Below are positions 748 through 60,472 of a DNA stretch of 64,000 bases, piece after piece. Position 1 is the first letter of the stretch, and each line of letters begins with the position of its first letter. The notes under the pieces are model-generated. The model was not told the DNA's origin and ran no database searches. It was given only the letters and a program-made list of their open reading frames with translations. Origin of the DNA: Thiomargarita sp. (GTDB lineage: Bacteria; Pseudomonadota; Gammaproteobacteria; Beggiatoales; Beggiatoaceae); NCBI GenBank assembly GCA_020721005.1, contig DYNP01000015.1, forward strand, positions 19,771 through 83,770, given 5' to 3'. The translations under genes and the position numbers were made by a program.

Positions 748-2496
748 TCAACTGTCCACATAATAGAGAATGTCAGAAAGTTGTTCTATAAGGGTTGATA
801 ATGTTTTAAACTGTTTATTGGCAATGGCTTGAGTAATTTGATTGACCAATTCCATCATATCTTCTTGATTTTCAGAACTGACTTTGCTCAACAATCGTCC
901 GGCTTTTTCCACCAGAGCTTGGGCTTGAATGATCAGGTGATGAGGTTCTGCAATGACTTTTTCTTGGGAAATTTCGGTTATTTCTTCAAAAATAGTGTTT
1001 AAACGTTGATTTACAGTGGTTTCAGAATTTTGTTCAAAGGCAATGGCTTGGTTAACGGTGACTGTTTTTTGAAGTCCCGATTGTTTCTCAATTGCGGTGA
1101 CTTCTAAGACCCCATCGACATCCAAACTAAATGTGACTAAAATGGGATTGTTATGGGGAACTGCACTTAATCCCTCAACGCTGAATTCTCCCAGTTTGAT
1201 GTTATTGGGATCGAGTGGATTCTCTCCTTGGAAAATGGGAATATCCACAGCTTCTTGATTGTCCAAAACGGTGTAAAATACTTCGGTTTTTTGGATGGGT
1301 AAAGGGGTGTTTCTGGCGATGATGGGAATATAAATGCTTTGTTGAATTTCTCCTTCCATTTCCTTAAGGGCATAGATACCAAAACTGTAGGGAGTGATGT
1401 CAACCAGACGAGTGGGCAAAGGACTGTTCCCATGGATAAGAGCGCCTTGGAGGGCTGCCCCCATGGCCACGCAGAGGTCCGGGTGAATTTCACAGCGTGG
1501 GGGTTGACGAAATAATTCTGCCAAACGTTGTCCGATCAACGGGGTGCGGGTGCTGCCTCCGACCAGTAAAACTTCATGAATATCAGAAACTTTCAGTTGT
1601 GCATCTCGTAAAGCAATCAAGGTGGATTCCAACGTCTGTTCAACCGGTTCCCGAATCAGGATTTCGTATTGTTCTCTGGACAGCTCCAGGGACAGATGAA
1701 TGGGAATTCCTTCCTGTTCCGTCAAAAACTCTTCTTGCATGAGAACATAGGGATGGTAAGATAAGGTGCGTTTGGCAATTTCAGCTATTCGGGTAATCTT
1801 GGCCATGGCAGGCTGCGATTGGCGAGGATCAATAGCGTATTTATTTTGTAAATGATTGAGAATATAGTCAATGATTTTTTGGTCAAAATCATCCCCACCC
1901 AGTTGAGGATGCCCATGAGTGGACAGAATTTTGATCGTATCATTGTGAATATGGGCTATCGAAACATCAAAAGTGCCCCCCCCAAAATCATAAATCAGCA
2001 CTTGTTTATTGGTTCGATGTTCAGTCTTATAGGCCAAGGCAGCTGCTGTGGGTTCATGGAGTAGTCGAACAATTTCTAAATCAGCCAGTTGCCCGGCTTC
2101 TCGGGTGGCTTGTTTTTGAGCGTCTGTAAAATAGGCAGGGACAGTGACCACGGCTTTTGAGATGGGGTGTTGTAAGTAGGCTTCAGCCGTATTTTTGAGG
2201 TGTTTGAGCAGGAAAGACGCGATGGCTTGCGGAGTGTAAGTCTGGTCTCCCAAGGTCACTTTAACGGATTGCCCCATTTTGCGTTTGATGGATTTAACCG
2301 TCCTTTCCGGATGAAGTAGATATTGATTTTTGGCAGTTTCTCCAACTAACAGGGTACCTTGAGCATCCAATCCTACGTAAGAAGGTAGAGCCAACTGTCC
2401 TGGCGTGGGTTCAAGTACCATAATTTTATGATTTTTTAATACGGCAACTTCTGAATTGGTAGTACCTAGGTCAATTCCAATGATAAATTCATTCAT
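748..2496 (-). CDS. Hsp70 family protein (DnaK paralogue)
   Basis: A 582-residue Hsp70. The nucleotide-binding domain spans about residues 1-370, with the phosphate-1 motif IGIDLGTTNS near residues 6-15, the HEPTAAALAY motif, the phosphate-2 motif DFGGGTFDVS and the adenosine motif LVGGSTRTP. A beta-sandwich substrate-binding domain follows (about 380-500), then a short helical lid. It is shorter than housekeeping DnaK (about 640), lacks the EEVKD-like tail, and has no dnaJ or grpE beside it; the only J-protein in the window is at 53126. It is therefore a specialised paralogue, in size like HscC-type proteins. The start at 2496 is only about 20 bp from the end of a miniature repeat element, so any native promoter lies inside or beyond that element. 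It is followed by the zinc-ribbon gene. Confidence 0.93.
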   Translation of the reverse strand: MNEFIIGIDLGTTNSEVAVLKNHKIMVLEPTPGQLALPSYVGLDAQGTLLVGETAKNQYLLHPERTVKSIKRKMGQSVKVTLGDQTYTPQAIASFLLKHLKNTAEAYLQHPISKAVVTVPAYFTDAQKQATREAGQLADLEIVRLLHEPTAAALAYKTEHRTNKQVLIYDFGGGTFDVSIAHIHNDTIKILSTHGHPQLGGDDFDQKIIDYILNHLQNKYAIDPRQSQPAMAKITRIAEIAKRTLSYHPYVLMQEEFLTEQEGIPIHLSLELSREQYEILIREPVEQTLESTLIALRDAQLKVSDIHEVLLVGGSTRTPLIGQRLAELFRQPPRCEIHPDLCVAMGAALQGALIHGNSPLPTRLVDITPYSFGIYALKEMEGEIQQSIYIPIIARNTPLPIQKTEVFYTVLDNQEAVDIPIFQGENPLDPNNIKLGEFSVEGLSAVPHNNPILVTFSLDVDGVLEVTAIEKQSGLQKTVTVNQAIAFEQNSETTVNQRLNTIFEEITEISQEKVIAEPHHLIIQAQALVEKAGRLLSKVSSENQEDMMELVNQITQAIANKQFKTLSTLIEQLSDILYYVDS

Positions 2497-2515
2497 ATTT
2501 TGCTAATTTGTTTAT

Positions 2516-2984
2516 TAGACCTCTTGCAAAAGTAAATGATGCGATAAAGATGAGATACGAAAAAATAAAAGGGAAATTCCCGTTGGAGTGGAGTTGAGGC
2601 TTTAGCCGAAGTGGAGGTTCTAGAAAGTACCTTGGAGTAGAGGCTTTAGCCGGTCAACCGTAGATCCTTGGAGTAGAAGCTTTAGCCGGTTAGCAATCTG
2701 TCCTTGGAGTGGAGGCTTTAGCCGGTCAGCCGTAGGCATCACCCCACATACACAAATTGCAAAGGCCTACGGCTGACCGGCTAAAGCCTCCACTCCAAGG
2801 TACTTTCTAAAGCCTATACCCCAAGGACCGACAGCTGACCGGCTAAAGCCTCTACTCCAAGGTACTTTCTAAAGCCTCTACTCCAAGGATCTACTGCTGA
2901 CCAGCTAAAGCCTCCACTCCGAGGTATCTTAACTGAGGGGCAACTCCCATTTTTTTATTATCGCATACTTTTTTAAGAGGTTTA
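2516..2984. repeat. MITE-like inverted-repeat element, copy 1 (longest)
   Basis: The left end reads TAGACCTCTTGCAAAAGTA and the right end is its imperfect complement (about 2966-2984), both bordered by TA. Inside is a perfect 36-bp inverted repeat (2702-2737 and 2765-2800) around an ATCACCCCACATACACAAA-type loop. Each side has several degenerate tandem units of about 22-40 bp built on TTGGAGTGGAGGCTTTAGCC. There is no coding capacity. Its relatives are at 11884-12160 and 43851-44126, with a reduced one at 34776-34964. It separates the Hsp70-like gene from the tRNA-Pro region. I see no gene from 2985 to 3258. Confidence 0.85.
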
Positions 2985-3258
2985 TTGTAATTGTAAAGGC
3001 TTATTTTAAAGATGAGAGCCATCCAATAGGGGGAAGTTTTGGGCATCCCCCTGACTTCTGTAGGACAGGCGAATCCAATGATATTGGAAGGGCTTTGGGA
3101 GAAATGATCTTATATTTTAGGGTATTTTTAATTAAAGGGAAATAGTCGATGGAATTGACTCGTAGAGCGGTCAATTTTTAACTCTTTCAAGAGGAGGGGA
3201 AAATGAATTTAGGAAGGGGAATGAATTTGGGAAGGGAAGTAATGCAAGTCCGTAAAAG

Positions 3259-3335
3259 TGGTCGGGATGAGAGGATTTGAACCTCCGACCTTTGCCTCCC
3301 GAAAGCAACGCTCTACCAAACTGAGCTACATCCCG
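3259..3335 (-). tRNA. tRNA-Pro (anticodon CGG)
   Basis: Read on the minus strand this 77-nt segment folds as a standard cloverleaf. It has a 7-bp acceptor stem CGGGATG/CATCCCG, a D arm with GCTC/GAGC, and an anticodon stem TTGCT/GGCAA around the loop TTCGGGA (anticodon CGG, reading CCG). The T arm is GGAGG-TTCAAAT-CCTCT, and the CCA end is encoded. The C1-G72 start and the T-arm sequence match bacterial tRNA-Pro genes. Confidence 0.95.
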
Positions 3336-3466
3336 TTTTTTAGAAATTCTACTCGACTGAATAGAGAATTTCGGCTAAAATTAACGTCAACACACGACTT
3401 TCCTCAAAGTTCAACATATGACGATCAGTATAATTAGTTTCAATCATTTTTGCAACCTCAATTGAT

Positions 3467-3808
3467 ATGCCCATTCTTATACAAACGATTATTTTACTGT
3501 CCCTGTCCAATATTTTCATGACTTTTGCGTGGTATGCGCATTTAAAGAATTTACATCAGGCACCTTGGCTAGTAGCCGCTTTAGTAAGTTGGGGTATTGC
3601 CCTATTTGAATACTTATTACAAGTGCCTGCCAACCGAATTGGTTATACCCAGTTCAGTTTGGCACAATTGAAAATTCTGCAAGAGGTAATTACTTTATCT
3701 GTGTTTGTCCCGTTTGCCATTTTTTATATGCAACAGCCGATGAAGTGGGATTATTTGTGGGCTGGGTTATGCTTGTTAGGAGCAGTATATTTTATCTTTC
3801 GAGCTTAA
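3467..3808 (+). CDS. DMT-superfamily DUF486 membrane protein
   Basis: A 113-residue protein with four hydrophobic segments (about residues 3-20, 34-52, 71-88 and 94-111). The body contains the WYAHLKNL and LEYLLQVPANRIGY-type sequence characteristic of the DUF486 family of small four-helix proteins related to the drug/metabolite transporter superfamily. The length is typical of the family. It should sit in the inner membrane; the substrate is unknown. No operon partner: the next gene is convergent and a hairpin lies between them. Confidence 0.88.
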   Translation: MPILIQTIILLSLSNIFMTFAWYAHLKNLHQAPWLVAALVSWGIALFEYLLQVPANRIGYTQFSLAQLKILQEVITLSVFVPFAIFYMQQPMKWDYLWAGLCLLGAVYFIFRA

Positions 3809-3840
3809 TCGTTTTTTGTTGATCAGTAGCCAGCCAGTAG

Positions 3841-3878
3841 GTTGGGTTGTGGCGCGCCTTTTTGCACCATAACCCAAC
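3841..3878. terminator. Hairpin between convergent genes (repeat-like, probable bidirectional terminator)
   Basis: An imperfect 12-bp inverted repeat (GTTGGGTTGTGG and CCATAACCCAAC) encloses a GC-rich loop, between the stop of the DUF486 gene and the stop of the convergent NAD-binding gene. The arm GTTGGGTT...AACCCAAC resembles dispersed palindromic repeats found between genes in many proteobacteria. The following plus-strand sequence is AT-rich (AATTTTG) but not a strong T run. Confidence 0.5.
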
Positions 3879-3885
3879 AATTTTG

Positions 3886-4839
3886 TTAACGTCGGGCCTG
3901 GCAACGCAAATGAGAATAAAACATCGATCTTTGGGTACTGGAATTTAGATAAGTGGGCAAAATGGATTCTAAACTGTGGGGCACTGAGTTAAATTGAGCA
4001 AAGTGATTGTGCTGGCAAATACTGTCAACACGACTGGTCTGATAATTGTCTACTGAATAAGGTTTGCCAGGAATCAGTTCCATGAAGTTGCCAGTCAGAT
4101 GAGACAAATTATTCTTTAAGGGAATAATATAACGTTTAAGTCCCATCACTTTAGCCGTGTATTCTACAATTTCTTGTAATGTATACTCTTGCGGTCCACA
4201 CAAACTGTAACGCTCCCCATAATGATTGGGATCGTCCAAGGTTTTCAACATCACTTCAACCAGATCTTCCACCCAAACCGGGGCCATTTTTGCGTAGGCA
4301 GAAGGTAGGGCAAAAAAGAAAGGGGCTATTTTGAGGAGATTGGCAAAACGATTGATAAAATTGTCATCTTCTCCAAATACTACTGAAGGTCTAAAAGTGG
4401 TGACCTGCATTCCCTCGATGGAATGGATCCAATCTTCTCCTTGTCCCTTAGTACGTAGATAATGGCTATTTTTCTCTTGGGGATTGGCATTGAGAGCGCT
4501 GAGGTGGAGAAAACGAGTGATTTGGTTGCGTTGGCAGGCATGCAAAAGTCGCTTGGGAAGTTCGACATGGGCTTGGTAAAAACCACTGCCATCGCTGCCA
4601 TTTTCATTGAGAATGCCTACCAAATTGATGATTGCTTGACAACCTGCCAATTCGGTATTGAGGTAATACTGTTGATAATGGTCAGCAGAGACCAATTCTA
4701 AATTGGGTAATACTAACAGGTCACGATGGCGTTCTCGACGACGTGTCAGAACACGAACATGCCACCCTTGTTGAGTTAGGCGGTTGGCTAAGTGTCGACC
4801 AATAAAGCCGGTGCCTCCAATTAAGGCAATAGTGCGCAT
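3886..4839 (-). CDS. NAD(P)-dependent epimerase/dehydratase, complex I NDUFA9-like
   Basis: A 317-residue atypical short-chain dehydrogenase. The N-terminal Rossmann signature ALIGGTGFIGRHLANRL (about residues 5-21) binds NAD(P). Further typical elements are INLVGILNE, FLHLSALNA and FRPSVVFGEDDNFINRF. This FRPSxVFG core with APVWVEDL is characteristic of the NDUFA9-like/YfcH-related group, which bind nucleotide but have no well-defined reaction in bacteria. It is transcribed alone, convergent with the DUF486 gene. Its specific substrate cannot be stated. Confidence 0.88.
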   Translation of the reverse strand: MRTIALIGGTGFIGRHLANRLTQQGWHVRVLTRRRERHRDLLVLPNLELVSADHYQQYYLNTELAGCQAIINLVGILNENGSDGSGFYQAHVELPKRLLHACQRNQITRFLHLSALNANPQEKNSHYLRTKGQGEDWIHSIEGMQVTTFRPSVVFGEDDNFINRFANLLKIAPFFFALPSAYAKMAPVWVEDLVEVMLKTLDDPNHYGERYSLCGPQEYTLQEIVEYTAKVMGLKRYIIPLKNNLSHLTGNFMELIPGKPYSVDNYQTSRVDSICQHNHFAQFNSVPHSLESILPTYLNSSTQRSMFYSHLRCQARR

Positions 4840-5025
4840 GAGAGCTCTCCTTAGGTTTTGAAATCAATAAATATTTTTGGGATCAGTCTTTCCTCTTTCT
4901 ATACGAAAAAAGATTGGCAGAAGATTAGGGTGAAAGTTTCTTCCCAGCCCCAATAGGATGGGCTGATGATAGGAGACCCATCCTATATGTGCTGATTATT
5001 CCCTATAAAGGGGAAAAATTGAGAT

Positions 5026-5820
5026 TCATTTGGGAATTGGGGTAGAAGGTCGATTGCTCATGGTACAGGTCATGGTTGCTGCCAAGGCAATGAGTCCAAA
5101 GGCAAGGGGCCAAGTGAGATCCAACCACCAAATGCCCTGTTTTAGGATGTTGAGGTTGTGCAGTAAGACGTGTAAAAATGCGCCAATAGAGAATATAAAA
5201 AGTCCCGTGAGGGCAAACCACCAAGGGCGACAAATGGGATGGCCAATTAATACGGAGGCCGTGATAATGATCATGGTCATCAGCATTGGCGTAAAAACTA
5301 CATAAGCCATAGTGGTCATAAAGGCCGCAATGCCAATTTGTTTTAGAGTTTCTGAATTGATGATGAGGGCAAGCAGGGAGATACTGGTGGCAATGATAAA
5401 TGCCGAAATCCAGGCCCAAAAGGGAATGGCTACGTTAAGGCTGAATCGTAACGTCATCAGAGCTGAAAGGACAAGGGGGATGAAGAGGAGATAACCTATA
5501 TCAGAATACCAAGGAAAGGGGGTTTCTTGTCCAGAGTGAGTGATGGGATACACTAGAGAGAGGAATGCACCTCCGGTCCAAAAAAGTACAGCAATACCCA
5601 AGGTAGACCATGCTTTGCGTACTGGATCATTCGGAAGGAAAAGTCGCCTATTGTAGAAACAGAAAAAACTGGCGAGTGCTGCAATGAGTAGTTCTAAAAA
5701 GCTGCTATAGTATGTGTAAATCACGTGTTGTTCTCCACCTCTAAAGAGGAGTCCAAGAAAGATAGCGGCAATGCAGAGTACTGCCCAGCTGATCAGTAGA
5801 ATGAAAGAGATTTTTGACAT
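5026..5820 (-). CDS. Polytopic membrane protein of unknown function
   Basis: A 264-residue, very hydrophobic protein with about eight predicted membrane helices (roughly residues 5-26, 36-56, 70-92, 105-124, 130-152, 158-190, 195-222 and 228-250). There are no soluble domains. The helix bundle resembles the membrane sensor modules (MHYT- or MASE-like) found in front of GGDEF or kinase domains, but here it stands alone, and I do not assign a family. It is divergent from the operon beginning at 6050 and has no partner gene on its own strand. Confidence 0.8.
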   Translation of the reverse strand: MSKISFILLISWAVLCIAAIFLGLLFRGGEQHVIYTYYSSFLELLIAALASFFCFYNRRLFLPNDPVRKAWSTLGIAVLFWTGGAFLSLVYPITHSGQETPFPWYSDIGYLLFIPLVLSALMTLRFSLNVAIPFWAWISAFIIATSISLLALIINSETLKQIGIAAFMTTMAYVVFTPMLMTMIIITASVLIGHPICRPWWFALTGLFIFSIGAFLHVLLHNLNILKQGIWWLDLTWPLAFGLIALAATMTCTMSNRPSTPIPK

Positions 5821-6049
5821 TTTACCTACCTTTGGTTAGAAATTGTTTTATTTTGCTTAATTCTTGACTATATCATAGAATTAAGTAGCTAAGCAAAATA
5901 CCATTAAGTAGGAAGTAGGTACAGCAATGTCATAAGTAGACGGACTTTGCCTTCCTTAAAAAGGGGAAGTAAACAACGTCTCAGGAAGAGATTTTTTGAA
6001 TTTTAGAAATTTGGCATTGGTTTTTGTTGAGATAAATACTACACTTAAG

Positions 6050-6745
6050 ATGAAACGATATCGATCAGTCAGTAGTTGCGTGACTTATCAAGTCTATGAG
6101 TTTGACTTAAATGGGCTGAGTTTGGAGCAATATGCAAAGTTAAGGATATTTGTCCAAACTTTAGGTTACAACAGTTATCCTTCACAATTAAGTGTACTCC
6201 ATATCAAGCATCCCTTATTTTTTATTGATTTTCCAGGGTATGGTTTTCCCACGGCTAAGATCAGTTTTTATCCTCAGACTGTCCCTGAAAAAGTCAATGA
6301 ATACTTGGAAATGTTGAATGGTCAATTAGCCTTTGGAGGAGTAAGTATGAATGAGAAGAGTAGTTATGTGATTAAGGTGGGCGAGTTGTTTAAGGCATTG
6401 AATGGGAAGAGAGTCAGTCAGGGATTGTCAGAAATTGACAGTCCCCTGATTGCCAGTAAGTTGGGCATTCTGTTTGCGTTGAAGACCAACGGTTATGTCA
6501 ACTTCAAGGGAGAGATCATCGACCTTAATGACAATCAACTCATTGCCTTACAGGAAATTTTGGATCAACATTTTAATGCGGAGATGAGTGTGGAATTGCG
6601 GCAACTTATTGCTTCAATGGAGCATTTTATTAAGTCTGCAGAAGCCGCATCTTCTGAAACGACTGTCGTTTCTGAGAAGAAAGGCTTGTTTAATAAATTC
6701 AAAGGGTTATTTAAATCCAAACTGCATCAAGAGAGTCATGCCTGA
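6050..6745 (+). CDS. Unknown protein, first gene of the V4R-like operon
   Basis: A 231-residue soluble protein that I do not recognise. I chose ATG at 6050 over the in-frame TTG at 5996, because the 18 extra residues look non-native. The first 90 residues are mixed alpha/beta. The middle (about 100-185) reads like a helical domain with SKLGILFALKTNGYVNFKGEIIDL. The last 25 residues form a basic amphipathic stretch (KKGLFNKFKGLFKSK) suited to membrane or nucleic-acid association. Its TGA stop overlaps the next ATG by one base (TGATG), so translation of the two genes is probably coupled and the products probably act together. Confidence 0.75.
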   Translation: MKRYRSVSSCVTYQVYEFDLNGLSLEQYAKLRIFVQTLGYNSYPSQLSVLHIKHPLFFIDFPGYGFPTAKISFYPQTVPEKVNEYLEMLNGQLAFGGVSMNEKSSYVIKVGELFKALNGKRVSQGLSEIDSPLIASKLGILFALKTNGYVNFKGEIIDLNDNQLIALQEILDQHFNAEMSVELRQLIASMEHFIKSAEAASSETTVVSEKKGLFNKFKGLFKSKLHQESHA

Positions 6746-7953
6746 TGGATAAACCCCTACATTCAACCCCGCAAATTGTCACCGTGGGCGGCCAGCGATT
6801 GATTGGAGGACTCAGTCGGGTCTATCATTGTAACCACTACAATGCCTATCTGCAAATGGCCGTATTGATGACCGAATATCTCCCCCAACATTCTCCTCAA
6901 CAATTATTGACGGAAGCAGTTACGCCCTTGATACAAGAGTTACGCAAAAGGGGTTATTCTCAACAACAATTGTTGGAGGAATACTCTTATTGTGGATTCG
7001 GTGTTTTACGACAAATCGACGCAATCCATTGGGAAACTCCCAGTTCCCATTATGGACAGTCCTTAACTTTTCACGGTAAACCTCAAAAAAGTTGCTTTTT
7101 TACCACAGGTTACTTGCAGGGACTGTTGGACCGACAAGTTGTTGAAGTGGCTTGTCAAGTTGAAGGCAGTGAATCCGACCGCTTTCAAGTGTCTGAACTT
7201 CCTTGTATCGTGAATCCTTACTTGGTTTATCCATTAGAACTTACCCCAGAAATTCCAGAACGCTTCTCATTTAGCGGATGTCAGGAATTTACAACTCAGA
7301 TCGATGAGCCCAGTATTATTGCTGCCGTCAACAGCTTACCATTATATGGGAAAAAAGAGGCGCCGGAAACGGGATTAATTCCTGCATTTGGTGTGGTATT
7401 GACTCATCATTTTGCCGATTACTACAATCAGATTTCCTATCAAACCTATTGGGCACTGCGCAATGCAGGCATGCCGGAAGAGGATAGTAAAGAGATGTTT
7501 ATCCAGGCCGGACATATTTGCGCATTTAACACTTTTGGGGGAATTATGAAAAGTCCCGAGTGGCATGCCATTGTGGCACCCCACTGTCGAAATCGGGAAG
7601 ATTGGCTGCACGGCATGATCGCAGTGATCAATGCGTTAGGCTGGGGAATTTTTCGAGTGGAACGAATTGTTCCTGAAAAGGAATTTATTGTGCGCGTCTA
7701 CAACTCATATGAAGGTATAGGTTATCGACGCATTTTCCTAAAAACGGAGGATAAAAACATGTCTTTCCTGGGCATGGGAGCTACTTTGGGACTGGTTCAT
7801 TTGCTATGGAAAGTCGACATTCGGGAACGACCTGATTTGACTCATGACTTTTATGTTAAACAATTCAATAACCCGCAGAATAGCTATACCGTTGAACAAT
7901 CTCATGCCATTGCTGCGGGTGATGAATATGATCGTTTCATTGTGTCTAAATAA
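6745..7953 (+). CDS. Protein with two V4R-like domains
   Basis: A 402-residue protein. Around residues 90-150 it has the hallmarks of a V4R (4-vinyl reductase) domain: GFGVLRQIDAIHW, then FFTTGYLQGLLDRQ, then VVEVACQVEGSESDRFQV. The same layout recurs near the C-terminus: GWGIFRVERI, FLGMGATLGLVHLL, then EQSHAIAAGDEYDRFIV. V4R domains bind small hydrophobic ligands or metals and usually act as sensors; the usual second Cys is replaced here by Asp or Arg in both copies. The start ATG overlaps the stop of the preceding unknown gene, so the pair is an operon. No DNA-binding, kinase or cyclase output domain is present. Domain assignment is by eye and moderate. Confidence 0.65.
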   Translation: MDKPLHSTPQIVTVGGQRLIGGLSRVYHCNHYNAYLQMAVLMTEYLPQHSPQQLLTEAVTPLIQELRKRGYSQQQLLEEYSYCGFGVLRQIDAIHWETPSSHYGQSLTFHGKPQKSCFFTTGYLQGLLDRQVVEVACQVEGSESDRFQVSELPCIVNPYLVYPLELTPEIPERFSFSGCQEFTTQIDEPSIIAAVNSLPLYGKKEAPETGLIPAFGVVLTHHFADYYNQISYQTYWALRNAGMPEEDSKEMFIQAGHICAFNTFGGIMKSPEWHAIVAPHCRNREDWLHGMIAVINALGWGIFRVERIVPEKEFIVRVYNSYEGIGYRRIFLKTEDKNMSFLGMGATLGLVHLLWKVDIRERPDLTHDFYVKQFNNPQNSYTVEQSHAIAAGDEYDRFIVSK

Positions 7954-11883: not shown

Positions 11884-12160
11884 TAGACCTCTTGCAAAAG
11901 TAAAGGTAGGTTGGAGTGAAGGCTTTAGCCGGTGGTTGGAGTGGAGGCTTTAGCCGGTCAGCCGTAGGCATCACCCCACATACACAAATGGCAAGGGCCA
12001 ACTGCTAACCGGCTAAAGCCTCCACTCCAACCTACTTACTAACCGGCTAAAGCCTCCACTCCAACCTACTTACTAACCGACTAAAGCCTCCACTCCAACA
12101 TATTTTAACTGAGGCGCAACTCTCATTTTTTCATAATCGCATACTTTTGCAAGAGGTCTA
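11884..12160. repeat. MITE-like inverted-repeat element, copy 2 (best-preserved ends)
   Basis: A 277-bp element with near-perfect terminal inverted repeats: TAGACCTCTTGCAAAAGTA at the left, and its complement TACTTTTGCAAGAGGTCTA at 12142-12160. Both ends are bordered by TA. The interior holds units of the TTGGAGTGGAGGCTTTAGCCGG type in one orientation, the loop ATCACCCCACATACACAAA, and complementary units on the other side. It occupies most of the gap between minC and the hybrid kinase gene. From 12161 to 12252 I see nothing. Confidence 0.88.
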
Positions 12161-31397: not shown

Positions 31398-31763
31398 ATG
31401 GAACTTAAAAATCAATCTTACACAATCATCTACCTCCCAGAAAATAACAGTATCATCTGTCAAGGATCTGTGCTACCCAATGGAGATTTTGAATACGATC
31501 CTATTATTCACCTTTTCAATGAAGCAATTCAGCATGCGCTCTCGCAACTGAATGAACAACAGAGGACGAAAATTCTCACGTTAGATCTTAAAGCTTTGGA
31601 ATTTCTCAATAGTACAGGGATTCGAGCCATGGCGAAATTGGTGTTGCAAGTGCGCGAACATGAAGCCTTATCCCTTGAAATTATAGGTGACCAAGCGATT
31701 CCTTGGCAAAATAAGCTATTGAAAAACCTACAAAGACTGATGCCCCAGCTCATCTTGAAATAG
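31398..31763 (+). CDS. STAS-like regulator (slr1659-type)
   Basis: A 121-residue protein of the STAS-like/anti-sigma antagonist fold. LTLDLKALEFLNSTGIRAMAKLVL is the conserved phosphorylation-loop region, with Ser-Thr where Spo0F-type antagonists are phosphorylated. The C-terminal IPWQNKLLKNLQRLMPQL is the signature of the slr1659-like group first described in cyanobacteria and common in Beggiatoa-like genomes. ATG at 31398 is preferred to a TTG overlapping the antiporter stop. The likely partner is a switch kinase/phosphatase encoded elsewhere, or the antiporter itself. Confidence 0.78.
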   Translation: MELKNQSYTIIYLPENNSIICQGSVLPNGDFEYDPIIHLFNEAIQHALSQLNEQQRTKILTLDLKALEFLNSTGIRAMAKLVLQVREHEALSLEIIGDQAIPWQNKLLKNLQRLMPQLILK

Positions 31764-31965
31764 TAGAAACGCGATTAATCGCGTCTCCTCTACCTGTTAG
31801 ACGCAAATAATCGCGTCCCTATCATTGTTGGAGGCCCAGTAGAAACGCGATTAATCGCGTCTCCTACCTGTTAGACACAAACAATCGCGTCTCTACCATT
31901 GTTGGACCGCCCAGTAGAGGCGCGATTAATCGCGTCCCTACCTGTTAGACGCAAACAAACGCGGC
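31763..31965. repeat. Tandem array of palindrome-bearing repeat (about 75 bp unit, 2.7 copies)
   Basis: Units start at 31763, 31839 and 31914. Each contains the perfect 16-bp palindrome ACGCGATTAATCGCGT (the third has GCGCGATT), then CTACCTGTTAGACGCAAA and a second half-site AATCGCGT. Period 75-76 bp; the last copy is truncated. A single diverged relative is at 52795-52846. The array starts at the stop codon of the STAS-like gene and ends about 55 bp before the molybdoenzyme gene. Confidence 0.8.
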
Positions 31966-32020
31966 TCTGTGCTTCCCTAAGTGCTATTTTTTATCTAGGA
32001 TTTTCTTCAAGGAGATTAAC

Positions 32021-34200: not shown

Positions 34201-34782
34201 ATGACCCTTCCCATAACCACGGCTGGCGTTGATGAAGTGGGGCGCGGTCCCTTAGCAGGTCCCGTCGTGGCAGCCGCCGTGATTCTACCGCCGGATCATC
34301 CCATCCAAGGACTCAGAGATTCCAAACGCCTGACTGAAAAACAACGGGAACGTTTGGCTGACGAAATTCAAAAATACGCCCTAGCTTTTGCCTTAGGACG
34401 GGCTGAAGTTTCAGAAATTGACCAGTTAAACATCCTTCAAGCAAGTCTATTGGCCATGCAACGCGCCGTTTTAAGCCTCTCCATTGTCCCTCAACAAGTG
34501 GTCGTTGACGGTCCACATTGTCCAAAAATACCCTATCCAGTGACCGCCATAATCCGCGGCGATCAAACCATTCCCGTCATCAGTGCAGCCTCCATACTTG
34601 CCAAAGTTAATCGAGATCGAGAAATGAAAGAAATGGATCGAAAATACCCGGGTTATGGCTTTGCTGCTCACAAAGGTTACCCAACCCGTTTGCACCTGGC
34701 TGCCCTACAACAATTGGGCATTACTCCTATTCATCGTCGTTCATTTGCGCCCGTGAAGAATTATTTAAAGACAAACAGCTGA
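34201..34782 (+). CDS. rnhB: Ribonuclease HII
   Basis: A 193-residue RNase HII that removes ribonucleotides from DNA and cleaves RNA-DNA hybrids. The catalytic acids are in AGVDEVGRG (residues 8-16), VVDGPHCP and DRDREM of [19 protein letters not shown] and [14 protein letters not shown] are the conserved substrate-binding stretches. The last codons and the TGA stop (34780-34782) lie inside the arm of the repeat element beginning at 34776, so the natural C-terminus may have been slightly altered by the element; the enzyme core is complete. Confidence 0.97.
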
Positions 34783-34964
34783 CCGGCTAAAGCCTCCATT
34801 CCAAAGAATTTCATCATCCATAAGATTCAATAAAAAGCCTACTCTATCTGACTGGCCTCAAAAAAATGGTCAAGTCTTTAAAACCTGACAGACTTAAGCC
34901 AACATTGGAATGGAGGCTTTAGCCGGTCAGCCATATCGCATCATTTCCTATTGCAAGAGCTCTA
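34776..34964. repeat. Reduced MITE-like element, copy 4
   Basis: A perfect 27-bp inverted repeat (34778-34804 and 34905-34931) of the family arm (GCTGACCGGCTAAAGCC...) encloses 100 bp unrelated to the other copies. The right side continues to the family terminus TTGCAAGAGCTCTA (34951-34964) ending in TA. The left terminus is missing; the left arm is fused to the end of rnhB. From 34965 to 35127 I see nothing except a short CCCACCCTACCTGGCTG motif, also found near 52871. Confidence 0.75.
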
Positions 34965-43850: not shown

Positions 43851-44126
43851 TAGACTTCCTGTAAAGGTAAATGATGCGATAAAGATGAGATACGAAAAAA
43901 TAAAAGAGAAATTTCCGTTGGAGTGGAGGCTTCAGCCGGTATCTTGGAGTGGAGGCTTCAGCCGGTATCTTGGAGTAGAGGCTTCAGCCGGACAGCCATA
44001 GGCATCACTCCACATACACAAATCGCAAGAGCCTACTGCTGGCCGGCTAAAGCCTCCACTCCAGCGTATTTTAACTGAGGGGAAACTCTCATTTTTTCAT
44101 GATCGCATACTTTTACAAGAAGTCTA
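43851..44126. repeat. MITE-like inverted-repeat element, copy 3
   Basis: A 276-bp element with diverged termini (TAGACTTCCTGTAAAGGTA at left, TTTTACAAGAAGTCTA at right, TA at both edges). Three direct units of about 24 bp (TTGGAGTGGAGGCTTCAGCC, the second and third almost identical) lie left of the conserved loop CATCACTCCACATACACAAA, and one complementary unit lies on the right. The left 70 bp (ATGATGCGATAAAGATGAGA and onward) match copy 1 almost exactly. It starts 17 bp after the fccB stop. Confidence 0.85.
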
Positions 44127-44824: not shown

Positions 44825-46561
44825 TTAATTGGGACGTTTAGCCGGACTGTCTGGTGGCGTTGGTTCATCGGGAGGTGCTTGAAGGGCCGCTTTTTCAGAT
44901 AAGGTCGGTTCCACCTGAGTTGCCTTGAGACTTGTAGCAATGGAAGTTGATTTCGATTTGGGAACCGCAGTGGTTTCTTCTGCTAGGGTGCCATCTGCTG
45001 CTTCTGAAGATTTTTCTGTTTCGGAGGAGTCTTCTGCAGTTTGATCCTGATCATCAGTCGCTTCCGACTCTTCAGCCACAGATTCTTCTGATGAGTCTTC
45101 CACTTCATTTTCATTGCTGTCTTGTTCCCAATCAGCCTCGGCTTTCCCAGACTCTTTAGCGGTGGCTTCTTTTTCTGATGGGGAGACCTTTTCCTGATCT
45201 GCTTCAGCAATCTCCCCATTATCCTCTAAATTGTCCTCATCCCCAGTAGAAAAATCATCTGCTGTTGAGTTAGATACATCTTTAGCCTGTTGATCGGGAT
45301 TGTCAGTACTATCTTCCCCTGCCTGTTGGTCGATATTCTCAGCATGATCTTCTTCTGCCTGTTGATCAGAGTTGTCAGCATTATCCTCCTGTGCCTGTTG
45401 ATCAGCATTATCGACAACACCTCCTTCGGTATTGTCAGCATTATCTTCTTCTGCCTGTTGATCGGAATTGTCAGCATTATCTCCCTCTGCCTGTTGATCG
45501 ATGTTGTCAGCATGATCTTCTTCTGCCTGTTGATCGGCATTATCAGCATTGTCAGTATTGTCCTCATCTGCCTGTTGATCGGCATTGTCAGCATTATTTT
45601 CCTCCTCCTGTTGATCGGCATTGTCAGCGTTATCAGAATTATCCTCATCTGCCTGTTGATCAGCATTGTCAGCGTTATCAGCATTATCCTCATCTGCCTG
45701 TTGATCAGCATTGTCAGCGTTGTCAGTATTATCCTCATCTGCCTGTTGATCAGCATTGTCAGCGTTGTCAGTATTATCCTCATCTGCCTGTTGATCAGCA
45801 TTGTCAGTATCGTCAATATTATCCTCTTCAAGATCATTTTCTTCATCAGTATCCTTTTGAGAAGAATCTTTTTCCGCTTCATCTCCCTCATTAACGTCAG
45901 TCAACATATCTCTCTGTATATCTGCCGGGGAAGGAATATAGTCCTGAGGTTTTTTATCCGGTAATTTAGAAGTGCTGACCACCCAATTACTTGGAAGAGT
46001 ATATTCTACTCGAACCTCCTCAATAAGGACCGGATTTTGTGGTACATCTCGACGAAACGGTCCATCCGCGTCTACAGGTAATTTGGAAATTTTATCGACC
46101 ACGTCCATACCTTCCACAACTTTGCCAAACACGCAATAACCCCAACCGGAGGCAGTTGAAGATTTGTAGTCTAGGAATTGATTATCCTTAATATTGAAGA
46201 AAAATTGGGAAGTTGCCGAATGGGGATCTGCAGTGCGGGCCAAAGCCACCGTTCCACGAGTATTCGATAACCCATTGGTGGCCTCATTAAATATGGGGGA
46301 ATGAGTGCTTTTTTTCTGGTAATCAGCAGTATAAGCCCCCCCTTGAACGATAAAGTTTTCAATAATACGGTGGAATACAGTACTACTATAGAATCCTTCA
46401 TTTACATAGCGCAGAAAATTTTTAACCGATTCTGGGGCTTTGATGGGGTGTAATTCGATTTCAATCATCCCCAAATTAGTTTGAATGGTGACGTGAGGAA
46501 CTTCTTGAGCCCAAGTTAAACGGGTCAAGCTGAGTAGAAGACAGATGGCAATCAATTTCAT
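44825..46561 (-). CDS. Secreted cyclophilin with a long acidic repeat tail
   Basis: A 578-residue protein. The signal peptide (MKLIAICLLLSLTRLTWA) is followed by a cyclophilin domain (about residues 24-190: FHRIIENFIVQGGAYTAD, FNEATNGLSNTRGTVALARTADPHS). The remaining 380 residues are extraordinary. About 200 residues are tandem copies of a 15-residue Asp/Asn/Gln unit (DNADNADQQADEDNT) and variants, then a Ser/Glu/Asp-rich part, then PPDEPTPPDSPAKRPN. The tail is disordered, strongly negative, and could bind Ca2+ or resist salt. The cyclophilin active site looks intact, so this should be a periplasmic or extracellular foldase. No such tail is typical of the family. Confidence 0.9.
   Translation of the reverse strand: MKLIAICLLLSLTRLTWAQEVPHVTIQTNLGMIEIELHPIKAPESVKNFLRYVNEGFYSSTVFHRIIENFIVQGGAYTADYQKKSTHSPIFNEATNGLSNTRGTVALARTADPHSATSQFFFNIKDNQFLDYKSSTASGWGYCVFGKVVEGMDVVDKISKLPVDADGPFRRDVPQNPVLIEEVRVEYTLPSNWVVSTSKLPDKKPQDYIPSPADIQRDMLTDVNEGDEAEKDSSQKDTDEENDLEEDNIDDTDNADQQADEDNTDNADNADQQADEDNTDNADNADQQADEDNADNADNADQQADEDNSDNADNADQQEEENNADNADQQADEDNTDNADNADQQAEEDHADNIDQQAEGDNADNSDQQAEEDNADNTEGGVVDNADQQAQEDNADNSDQQAEEDHAENIDQQAGEDSTDNPDQQAKDVSNSTADDFSTGDEDNLEDNGEIAEADQEKVSPSEKEATAKESGKAEADWEQDSNENEVEDSSEESVAEESEATDDQDQTAEDSSETEKSSEAADGTLAEETTAVPKSKSTSIATSLKATQVEPTLSEKAALQAPPDEPTPPDSPAKRPN
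45280..45830 (-). repeat. 45-bp coding minisatellite in the cyclophilin tail
   Basis: A 45-bp unit coding for DNADNADQQADEDNT is repeated with variable degeneration. The copies nearest the cyclophilin domain (about 45640-45800) are almost identical; later copies lose one DNA triplet block (DNADQQ, DNSDQQ, DNIDQQ). The array is a likely site of length variation between strains. Confidence 0.8.
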
Positions 46562-52740: not shown

Positions 52741-53125
52741 GGGAATCCATCCGATGCTACTACCCCCTGCCCCTCCTTAGTGAAAAGAGGATCAGCGTCT
52801 CTACCATTTGTTGAACGTCCTTTTGTAAAAACGCGATTAATCGTGTGGGTGGACAACAAGTTTATCGTTGCCCACCCTACTTGGCTGGCTGGCTTGAAAA
52901 TAGCTCAAAGTGACATCATATAATACGGCCTATCAAAATAGGCCCAATCGCCGGAAAAAAGTAAATTGCGGACTGTGCCAAGCCGTAGCTTTACATTCTA
53001 AAGAGGAAGTAGAGCGTGTAACCTGCTAAACATACTTTAAAATGGCATATTTAAAAATTCGGCCCGTAGGGAAATAGAAGATTGAAAAAATCCAACAATT
53101 CAGATATTATCCCAACTTAAACATT
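52741..53125. other. Intergenic stretch with scattered repeat remnants
   Basis: 385 bp between the GGDEF-like gene and cbpA. It contains a piece of the CCCCTCCTT family (about 52763-52790), the single ACGCGATTAATCG repeat at 52795-52846, and an imperfect 10-bp hairpin (GGTGGACAAC/GTTGCCCACC, 52849-52876) followed by CCTACTTGGCTGG. Nothing coding is seen from 52900 to 53125. Confidence 0.6.
52795..52846. repeat. Diverged single copy of the ACGCGATTAATCGCGT repeat
   Basis: GCGTCTCTACCATTTGTTGAAC followed after a few bases by ACGCGATTAATCGTGT matches the unit of the array at 31763-31965, with a few substitutions. It shows the repeat is dispersed in the genome and not confined to the array. Confidence 0.65.
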
Positions 53126-58583: not shown

Positions 58584-59456
58584 TCACCGCAACGATTTCT
58601 CTGTAAAATTAGAAAAATCCCTCAACAACCCCTCATGCTGCTGTTGCAACCGCATTCTCGATACTTTAACTGCTTGTTCCGATTGATCAATGCCGATCCA
58701 GTACCGTTGCAACCGTTCCGCTACCACCACTGTGGTGCCACTGCCCACAAATGGATCTAAAACCATATCGCCCTCATTGCTGGCACATCGGATAATACGC
58801 TCTAGAAGAGCCTCGGGTTTTTGAGTGGGATAGCCAATGCGTTCCTTTACAGAAATATGAGCACCGCTGCCGATATCGCTCCACCAATCTTCCAAAGTCT
58901 TACCTTCCTGTTCCCTATTTCTCAAAGCCTTGGCATGTTCAATTGACGCTCTTTCCCTATTATACAATGTTCCCTTGTTATGAATACCGCTTAAATAAGG
59001 AACTTTTATAGGGTGAAAAGTAAAAGTGGAAGTCTTTGAATATCTCCAAATAGTATCATGTTTTTGTGGAAAATTCCTCTTTGATTGACTGGGTCCCTTA
59101 TAACACCAAATAATCTCATTACGAAAATTGTGTTCCCCAAATATTTTATCCAGAATGAATACCCGGATATAAGCGTTTGCATGCCAATCACAGTGCAAAA
59201 ATATCGATCCTGTGGACTTTAATACCCGGTGCATTTCCATCACTCGCTCTTTTAACCATGCAACATAATGATCAATCCCCCCAGACCATTGGTCTTGAAA
59301 ACCTCGAATTTCCCCATTATCTTCCTGAATCACTTCATAATTACGGTTGGAAAAAAACGGGGGATCCAAATAGATCAAATCGACACTTTTCGACTCCAAG
59401 GTCTTCAAAATTTGCAAATTATCGCCCAATAACAATTTATTGATAACATTGTTCAT
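58584..59456 (-). CDS. DNA methyltransferase (beta-class, second tandem copy)
   Basis: A 290-residue amino-methyltransferase with catalytic motif IV first (DLIYLDPPFFS, DPPF at residues 31-34) and the SAM-binding motif I near the C-terminus (VLDPFVGSGTTVVVAERL), i.e. the beta order. WCYKGPSQSKRN and HISVKERIGYPTQKPEALLERII are conserved landmarks. The motif DPPF indicates N6-adenine or N4-cytosine methylation. It overlaps the stop of the first copy by 4 bp (ATGA). The termini are highly similar to that copy, but the middle (target recognition) differs, so the two should methylate different sites. Confidence 0.93.
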   Translation of the reverse strand: MNNVINKLLLGDNLQILKTLESKSVDLIYLDPPFFSNRNYEVIQEDNGEIRGFQDQWSGGIDHYVAWLKERVMEMHRVLKSTGSIFLHCDWHANAYIRVFILDKIFGEHNFRNEIIWCYKGPSQSKRNFPQKHDTIWRYSKTSTFTFHPIKVPYLSGIHNKGTLYNRERASIEHAKALRNREQEGKTLEDWWSDIGSGAHISVKERIGYPTQKPEALLERIIRCASNEGDMVLDPFVGSGTTVVVAERLQRYWIGIDQSEQAVKVSRMRLQQQHEGLLRDFSNFTEKSLR

Positions 59457-60472
59457 AACAATGTCCTCGCTGTAAAATCAGGAACTTCTCTCAACAACTC
59501 CTCGCGCTGCTGTTGCAATCGCATTCTCGACACTCTAACTGCTTGTTCCGATTGATCAATACCAATCCAGTGCCGTTGCAACCGCTCTGCCACCACCACT
59601 GTGGTGCCACTGCCCACAAATGGATCTAAAACCACCTCATGTTGATTACTGGCCATTTTAATAATGCGTTCCAACAAAGCCTCGGGTTTTTGAGTTGGAT
59701 AACCTATGCGCTCTTTGGCATGCGCTTGGACATTGGGAATGTCAGCCCAAATATCACCACATAAATTCCCTTTATTTTCATCAAGATAACGTTTAAATGC
59801 CAAACGACCGGCTGGATTTTTGGGAAAATGAATTAAGCCCTCCTCATCCCACTTTTGCAAGGTGGTGAGAGCACAACGCCATCCGTTAACTGGGGGTTTA
59901 TAGCCTTTGTAATCATATAAACCTTGGGGATTCATTCGACTGGGATTGGCTAAATTATCCAAACGATATTGTCCTTTTTCATCTTTATGCTTATAGGCTT
60001 CTTGAATGTATTTTTGCTCATAAGCTGAATAGACTGGATGATAAGTAATTGTTTTCGATTTAGAATAATACCAAATGGTATCTTTCAAAACGGCCAGTTT
60101 TTTCTTAGCATCATTATGGGCATTATGTCTTTGCCAAACAATTTCTCCCTTAAAATTTTGTTCTCCAAAAATTCTGTTCAAAATAAAAACTTTGATCTCA
60201 GCATTCGCATGCCAATCACAGTGCAAAAATATCGATCCCGTGGATTTTAACACCCGGTACATTTCTTCCACCCGCTCTTTCAACCATGCAATATAATATT
60301 CGATGCCTCCGGACCACTGATCTTGAAAACTTCGAATTTCCCCAGCATCTCCCCAGATTATTTCATAGTTGCGATTGGAAAAAAAGGGGGGGTCTAAATA
60401 AATTAAATCGACATTTTCCGATTCCAAGGTTTTCAAAACTTCCAAATTGTCACCCAATAGTAACTTATTCAC
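59453..60472 (-). CDS. DNA methyltransferase (beta-class, first tandem copy)
   Basis: A 339-residue methyltransferase. Start GTG at 60472 with an AAAAGG ribosome binding site. Motif IV is DLIYLDPPFFS (DPPF 27-30), motif I is VVLDPFVGSGTTVVVAERL (near residue 285), and the CPPY-like region is replaced by IVWQRHNAHNDAKKKLAV. The target-recognition middle (DEKGQYRLDNLANPSRMNPQGLYDYKGYKPP) matches the adenine-methyltransferase type seen beside type III-like or stand-alone systems. No restriction subunit (Res or similar) is next to it. It heads the operon that runs through the second copy into the ATPase and HNH remnants. Confidence 0.94.
   Translation of the reverse strand: MNKLLLGDNLEVLKTLESENVDLIYLDPPFFSNRNYEIIWGDAGEIRSFQDQWSGGIEYYIAWLKERVEEMYRVLKSTGSIFLHCDWHANAEIKVFILNRIFGEQNFKGEIVWQRHNAHNDAKKKLAVLKDTIWYYSKSKTITYHPVYSAYEQKYIQEAYKHKDEKGQYRLDNLANPSRMNPQGLYDYKGYKPPVNGWRCALTTLQKWDEEGLIHFPKNPAGRLAFKRYLDENKGNLCGDIWADIPNVQAHAKERIGYPTQKPEALLERIIKMASNQHEVVLDPFVGSGTTVVVAERLQRHWIGIDQSEQAVRVSRMRLQQQREELLREVPDFTARTLL

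Follow-up and report, generated by a model that had tools for sequence, protein, structure and literature searches.

A Thiomargarita MITE with IS5-type ends, variable arm arrays and a hairpin core found in both orientations

Variable-module MITEs related to insertion sequences are already known, as is the inversion of Correia elements. In Porphyromonas gingivalis, the BrickBuilt element carries IS5-like terminal repeats and a variable internal array, lies between genes and is predicted to form long stem-loops; according to the same report, its 23-nt array sits between a leader and a tail, one strain holds 19 copies, and target duplications of differing length accompany three of the four checkable copies (PMC4596501). 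BOX of Streptococcus pneumoniae likewise consists of terminal modules and variable internal tandem modules (boxB), and IS-related mobilisation has been proposed for it (PMC3049150). The term “inversion” does not occur in the main text of either paper. For the Correia elements of Neisseria, which are MITE-type repeats, inversion is reported in a review (PMC10969869), and in chloroplast genomes small segments bounded by the inverted repeats of hairpins flip recurrently, with several changes of state per tree (PMC3123225, PMC6824564). MITEs are also abundant in Ca. Thiomargarita nelsonii, a member, like our organism, of the Beggiatoaceae (PMC4853749); the hupL MITE described there, whose inverted repeat is 19 bp and whose direct repeats are 10 bp long, is set apart from ours by this description, not by sequence.

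Here we describe a family from a Thiomargarita sp. genome of 4.05 Mb (G000; 133 contigs, possibly incomplete), starting from its copies in a 64,000-nucleotide stretch (G000:C84:19771-83770), the whole of which we call the window. Unlike BrickBuilt, this family has a hairpin core that is flanked by two opposed arrays and is found inverted in some copies, and its target duplication is consistently A-N-T. Its ends differ from those of BOX, for which the cited account describes no central hairpin with two opposed arrays (PMC3049150). In the Correia case the element itself inverts (PMC10969869), whereas here the central segment alone is turned relative to the ends, and whereas the chloroplast inversions are single plastid loci (PMC3123225, PMC6824564), this is a dispersed mobile family. 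In the open-licence literature we found no description of this family, of its unit or terminus strings, or of core inversion in a MITE. Given the close precedents of BrickBuilt, BOX and Correia, we regard the family as a variation on a known element type, set apart from an ordinary MITE by the opposed, independent arrays and the inverted cores. With a probability of roughly 0.77, we read it as a non-autonomous MITE of the ISL2 type of IS5 that encloses an older hairpin, with arrays that slip, a core that flips and no dedicated function.

The window contains three complete copies and one degenerate relative. The features are as follows, core orientation being expressed relative to the ends as “same” or “inverted”:
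2517-2983, plus strand: MITE copy 1, 467 bp, terminal repeats at 0 and 3 mismatches, core in the “same” orientation
2514-2516, no strand: left target duplication of copy 1, ATT, from flank comparison
2984-2986, no strand: right target duplication of copy 1, ATT, from flank comparison
2630-2735, plus strand: left-arm tandem array of copy 1, 36-bp period, extending into the left core stem (Tandem Repeats Finder)
2702-2737, plus strand: left stem of the copy 1 core hairpin, 36 nt, 100% complementary to 2765-2800 (inverted-repeat search)
2738-2764, plus strand: copy 1 core loop, part of the segment seen both ways round across the family (orientation comparison)
2765-2800, plus strand: right stem of the copy 1 core hairpin (inverted-repeat search)
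2772-2926, plus strand: right-arm tandem array of copy 1, 62-bp period (36+26) (Tandem Repeats Finder, unit spacings)
11885-12159, plus strand: MITE copy 2, complete, 275 bp, AAT target duplication (terminal-repeat scan)
43852-44125, plus strand: MITE copy 3, complete, 274 bp, ATT target duplication (terminal-repeat scan)
about 34770-34963, plus strand: degenerate relative with two outward-facing units, a single terminal-repeat-like end (3 mismatches) and no loop (terminal-repeat scan, loop search)
748-2496, minus strand: Hsp70-family ORF, DnaK/HscA-like, starting 20 bp from copy 1 (Pfam HSP70 1.6e-138; below the NCBIfam DnaK and HscA cut-offs)

The original prediction of a MITE family with variable internal units is borne out, with many further copies in the genome. 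Its perfect 36-bp palindrome in the copy 1 core is present (arms 2702-2737 and 2765-2800), and tandem units were detected by Tandem Repeats Finder on both the left and the right arm. It had also named four relatives with common termini, loop and unit; this holds for the three complete copies, but the fourth has one terminal repeat and lacks the loop, whose sequence CATACACAAA occurs three times in the window and not in the relative at about 34770-34963. The right end of every complete window copy contains TAACTGA (2930-2936, 12106-12112 and 44072-44078), which is a heptamer repeat reported from marine Beggiatoaceae (PMC4853749); across the whole window this heptamer is not in excess, with 7 sites against 8.0 expected. 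In an Rfam scan of 2400-3400 a tRNA alone scored above the gathering threshold; miRNA-type and sok matches at copy 1 stayed below it and were rejected as reflections of the hairpin.

Several other repeats lie in the window. A second, apparently unrelated family consists of 74-bp tandem units with the palindrome ACGCGATTAATCGCGT at 31762-31968 and has a relative 21 kb away at 52795-52851. Tandem repeats with periods divisible by three lie at 1-285 (57 bp) and at 45258-45874 (36/45 bp); those at 45258-45874 overlap an ORF whose N-terminal domain is a cyclophilin-type isomerase. At 58584-60472, two neighbouring related N6/N4 DNA methylase genes contain direct repeats of 250-300 bp at 79-83%.

How many copies does the genome hold? 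A genome-wide search with a 17-base terminus at up to 3 mismatches, the check for further copies that had been proposed, gave 259 matches against 22 for the reversed pattern. At no more than one mismatch, an 18-base terminus gave 153 matches and a 20-base unit 1029, each against 0 in the control. The two terminus counts suggest about a hundred or more elements. With the same tolerance, the unit was absent from the other 368 genomes of the class that were sampled, a sample without the related genome G007; it had 0 exact matches in viral contigs, and plasmid records gave no match to the element. Stretches of G000 were picked by terminus, core or unit matches, and 463 kb including the window were analysed. 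Pairs of ends with at most 4 mismatches each and less than 2.5 kb apart delimit 54 elements in the first 416 kb, ranging from 194 to 788 bp (median 311). The 463 kb contain 128 cores, some of them in tandem, of which 53 are two-ended, 56 one-ended and 19 without ends. Tandem whole cores or elements, in 2-4 copies at a spacing of 125-225 bp, occur at seven loci (L045, L058, L092, L315, L048 at 4713-4963, L044 and L068), with one core orientation per array, unlike locus L331 described below.

The flanks of the paired elements reveal the integration class. An exact 3-bp flanking repeat is found at 42 of the 54, a count that locus L083 enters three times for a single insertion, and a 4-bp repeat at one; among the controls, seven offsets yielded 0-3 of 54, and a shift of the left flank alone 0-4 of 54. 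The flank triplets read A-N-T in 98 of 108 cases, compared with 0-21 of 108 at offsets. A-N-T stands on either side of 45 elements; 41 of these have the same middle base left and right and one has complementary bases, where composition would give about 40% identity. The TA border is made up of the final T of the duplication and the first A of the terminal repeat. An A-N-T target duplication is the rule for the ISL2 subgroup of IS5. Judged by its termini and flanks, the element is a MITE with ends and a 3-bp duplication of the IS5/ISL2 type, the subgroup placement being by ends, A-N-T duplication and layout, not by a tree.

The TA borders had at first been taken to suggest integration of the IS630/Tc1-mariner kind, with insertion at TA and duplication of it. 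TA does stand at most borders, the flank usually ending in T and the terminal repeat beginning with A, but because it spans the junction of duplication and terminal repeat it lends that class no support. The base past TA is the same left and right in 41 of 45 elements and is complementary in one, the flanks duplicate a 3-bp A-N-T, and identical termini bound an IS5-type transposase gene elsewhere, so that we give an IS630/Tc1-mariner-type MITE hardly any credence. Comparison of the joined flanks with the sequence at hand (one genome per species) gave 5 junction-spanning alignments and no clean empty site; two of these are the tandem locus L045 counted twice, and three are weak at 75-76% identity.

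As predicted, the copies encode no transposase, and mobilisation presumably occurs in trans. By inspection, the seven longest of the 54 paired elements (up to 788 bp) contain frames of at most 129 aa made of repeats and no transposase gene, and no transposase remnant was seen in copies at contig ends. An exact search for ANT plus terminus in 84,980 species genomes returned at least 98 stretches, many in Psychrobacter and cyanobacteria, of which 80 were examined (L214-L231 were left out). At least ten Psychrobacter elements of 913-914 bp carry the terminus at both ends, with a matching 3-bp flank in 6 of these 10. One of them, L135, has two overlapping frames that match HTH_Tnp_4 and DDE_Tnp_4 over the cut-off; against the IS5 transposase model transpos_IS5_4 the halves, each taken alone, stay below it. 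These elements resemble ISCaa3 of Amoebophilus (ISL2 group), which at 914 bp has two frameshifted ORFs and 22/23-bp inverted repeats and differs from the MITE in being autonomous, with direct repeats tabulated as 0 (PMC3196728). Closer to our genome, in G033 of the same family, three distinct contigs (L105 = L196, L110 = L174, and L114) open with a frame that stops just before the terminus; the frame of L105 has 34 residues and is identical in 16 of 30 to the end of the Psychrobacter transposase. Among 30 transposase loci from relatives (L232-L261), both ends lie within 3 mismatches in one, L248 of G021 (0 and 3), whose flank does not match; L249 of G001 has distant ends and a 3-bp flank match.

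An autonomous element with the same ends, which the original prediction had proposed to look for, was found in Psychrobacter and, as contig starts, in G033, but not in the genome of the window: neither PF13359 nor the C-terminal half of the Psychrobacter transposase has a match in G000, and mobilisation in trans accordingly rests on other genomes. The single PF01609 match in G000, on contig C95, was discarded as the autonomous copy, its surroundings showing other ends. Elements of 99-124 bp with the same terminus and a 3-bp flank duplication were noted in cyanobacteria and one Chloroflexota genome (L146, L166, L170 and L210), and the terminus class thus seems to make small elements widely.

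Within the ends, the arms are variable. The 54 elements contain 375 units, 2-22 each, and the arms are unequal in 42; the commonest of 267 unit spacings are 26, 36, 14, 44, 18 and 43 bp. In 44 of the 54, 73-79 bp separate the innermost units, so that the arrays vary around a core that keeps a nearly fixed length of about 95 bp. Units from one array resemble each other more than they resemble units of other arrays, an excess of 4 to 6 percentage points that holds for each of the five classes compared. On inspection, the long arrays with 36-bp spacing tend to occupy the right arm and those with 44-bp spacing the left arm, whichever way the core is oriented, which suggests that the arrays do not flip along with the core; copy 1 and L051_9677 depart from this pattern, having some 36-bp spacings in the left arm.

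The core occurs in both orientations, a feature that was no part of the original prediction and that takes a comparison across the genome to see. After removal of cores with a common left end, 50 two-ended elements were left for the count, and these are 28 “same” and 22 “inverted” (one assembly, no reads); with stricter ends (at most 4 mismatches) the numbers are 20 and 15 (n = 35), and among the 56 one-ended cores 33 and 23. A diagnostic base of the inner stem turns with the loop: on the left it is C in 17 of 17 “same” elements, and in “inverted” ones it is G in 4 of 5 on the left and in 10 of 11 on the right. The right base of “same” elements is more mixed (5 C, 1 G, 2 T), and neither base is readable in 18 of the 50. 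Orientation does not follow descent as recorded in the ends. Left-end and right-end distances of elements correlate (r 0.50, p 0.0015), whereas elements whose end sequences are closest share their orientation at a rate of 0.50, with 0.497 expected from shuffles, and at 0.48 to 0.56 in a repeat test (p 0.25-0.65); the ends thus hold a lineage signal of which orientation is independent. Against free flipping, the seven smallest of the 50 (239 bp or less) are all “same”, compared with 21 “same” and 22 “inverted” among the rest (Fisher p 0.014). We draw no size rule from this because inverted short elements of 194, 205 and 222 bp, each with one recognised end, exist outside the set of 50.

Two loci allow the comparison of copies that began alike. 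L331 consists of three tandem 196-bp units with identical arms of 30 bp and 28 bp and two 82-bp spacers with 4 differences. Within the inner 56 bp, units 2 and 3 are 89.3% and 92.9% identical to unit 1 when inverted and 52.4% and 54.1% when read directly. L083 comprises three paralogous loci that share one common insertion, with an ATT flank in each; flank identity is 97-99.5% over the adjacent 200 bp and 85-95% over 400-500 bp. The arrays, as left/right units, are 2/9, 1/3 and 6/2, and copies 2 and 3 have the loop turned round (82-86% inverted, 54-57% direct). The last 62 bp on the right are the same in copies 1 and 2; on the left, copy 2 is shortened and ends differently. Since paralogous copies at L083 and tandem copies at L331 differ in this way at one locus, arrays and core orientation change after insertion. 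The L083 elements follow three paralogous genes in a row (1525-7584), each of which ends 2 bp inside the element, the stop codon TAG apparently being formed by the T of the duplication and the AG of the terminal repeat. The gene tested beside these elements has a TPS (two-partner-secretion) domain.

Could the inverted cores and differing arrays have been copied in from elsewhere? Ectopic gene conversion or recombination with dispersed copies is the main rival to our reading. With 128 cores in 463 kb, potential donors are many; at L083 the loop segments differ by 14-18% after inversion while the adjacent flanks differ by 0.5-3%, and the altered left end of copy 2 fits an exchange as well. L331 speaks differently, with unchanged arms, spacers that differ at 4 of 82 positions and an inversion confined to the inner 56 bp, and so does the right end common to L083 copies 1 and 2. 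Inverted donors, moreover, must still have arisen. We consider conversion unlikely as the main cause, yet the rival most worth keeping in mind. An assembly artefact at the inverted repeats appears much less probable. The assembly is fragmented into 133 contigs, and some of them start or end inside elements (for example C79, C88, C111 and C133), but a core of about 95 bp fits into one ordinary read, elements of 240-302 bp show both orientations, and orientation is fixed in 15 of 15 informative loci of G007.

G007 also bears on the age of the core. A core search in 42 genomes of the family found it in this one other genome, with at least 44 matches listed (45 in a second search), and there other ends flank the cores. 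Reading 23 distinct G007 loci by eye gave 2 without a loop match, 6 without an asymmetric flank and 15 informative ones, all “same”; the queries carried a slight flank in the “same” orientation, which may favour such matches. G000 itself has cores of the G007 type without recognised IS5 ends (L322, L323 and L325). From these two observations, the core appears to be a hairpin repeat common to two genera that was enclosed later by IS5-type ends in the G000 lineage, and “same” is likely its ancestral orientation.

We propose the following course of events for the preferred reading of an ISL2-type MITE around an older hairpin. An IS5-family transposase supplied in trans would act on the termini AGACCTCTTGCAAAAGTA, paste the element between genes and duplicate a 3-bp A-N-T target, the duplication itself being seen in the flanks. 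Inside the IS5-type ends, the older hairpin repeat of about 95 bp and the units derived from its stem would be especially prone to slippage and template switching during replication, or to recombination between short repeats; each arm would then grow and shrink as a separate tandem array, while the segment between the stems flips. We prefer such hairpin-driven slippage, template switching or short-repeat recombination as the cause because chloroplast hairpins flip, BrickBuilt and BOX have variable modules and Correia elements invert. A point against hairpin-driven flipping is that avian inversion hot spots are described as not tied to stem-loops (PMC3123225). The element would most likely be without dedicated function, and its effects on neighbours, for instance a stop codon lent to a gene or a transcript leader with a long hairpin, would be by-products.

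The neighbourhood of copy 1 raises the question of recruitment. Its position 20 bp upstream of the Hsp70-like gene (ORF 748-2496, minus) was confirmed, and the predicted transcript fold of the copy is very stable owing to the inverted arrays (-276.5 kcal/mol, z -19.9), both of which would suit an element recruited as hsp70 promoter or leader. The claim that the element must contain whatever promoter hsp70 has finds no support, since 275 bp of other DNA (2984-3258) are free before the tRNA-Pro gene and could house a promoter. Nor did a consensus scan of 2440-3340, which other promoter types may escape, find any sigma-70-like site (0 against a shuffle mean of 0.9). Elements occur, furthermore, at every kind of gene border: 32 of the 54 lie between tandem, 13 between convergent and 9 between divergent genes and none within a gene (crude ORF calling), which is close to the distribution of the window gaps longer than 50 bp (21 tandem, 6 convergent and 7 divergent). 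Recruitment for hsp70 is, on balance, very unlikely.

The same data bear on the idea that the core is an invertible switch, turned by a dedicated site-specific recombinase for phase variation of neighbouring genes. The near-equal orientations (28:22) are what a switch might produce, and three copies lie 55-56 bp upstream of paralogous genes, the tested one having the two-partner-secretion domain. Set against this are the lack of a sigma-70-like site near copy 1 and the lack of a clear placement bias by gene orientation under crude ORF calling. A spacing of 56 bp is also short for site-specific inversion recombinases. We hold the dedicated switch to be a slim prospect. Only slightly better are the odds of a broader version, in which more than 100 dispersed and still-flipping hairpins form a mobile switch family that renders neighbours phase-variable, among them the tandem genes for secreted exoproteins.

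If the preferred reading of a flipping and slipping MITE is right, what does the family offer? Its integration class is now corrected, in that a TA border, easily taken for IS630/mariner, arises where an A-N-T duplication meets a terminal repeat. In a genome that harbours copies of this kind, assembly, the calling of start codons and the ends of genes can all become blurred. Two instabilities usually studied apart, minisatellite growth and hairpin-loop inversion, are joined here in one bacterial mobile family, and its many dispersed copies with defined ends form a natural experiment in which hairpin length, arm symmetry and array period can be set against flipping and slippage.
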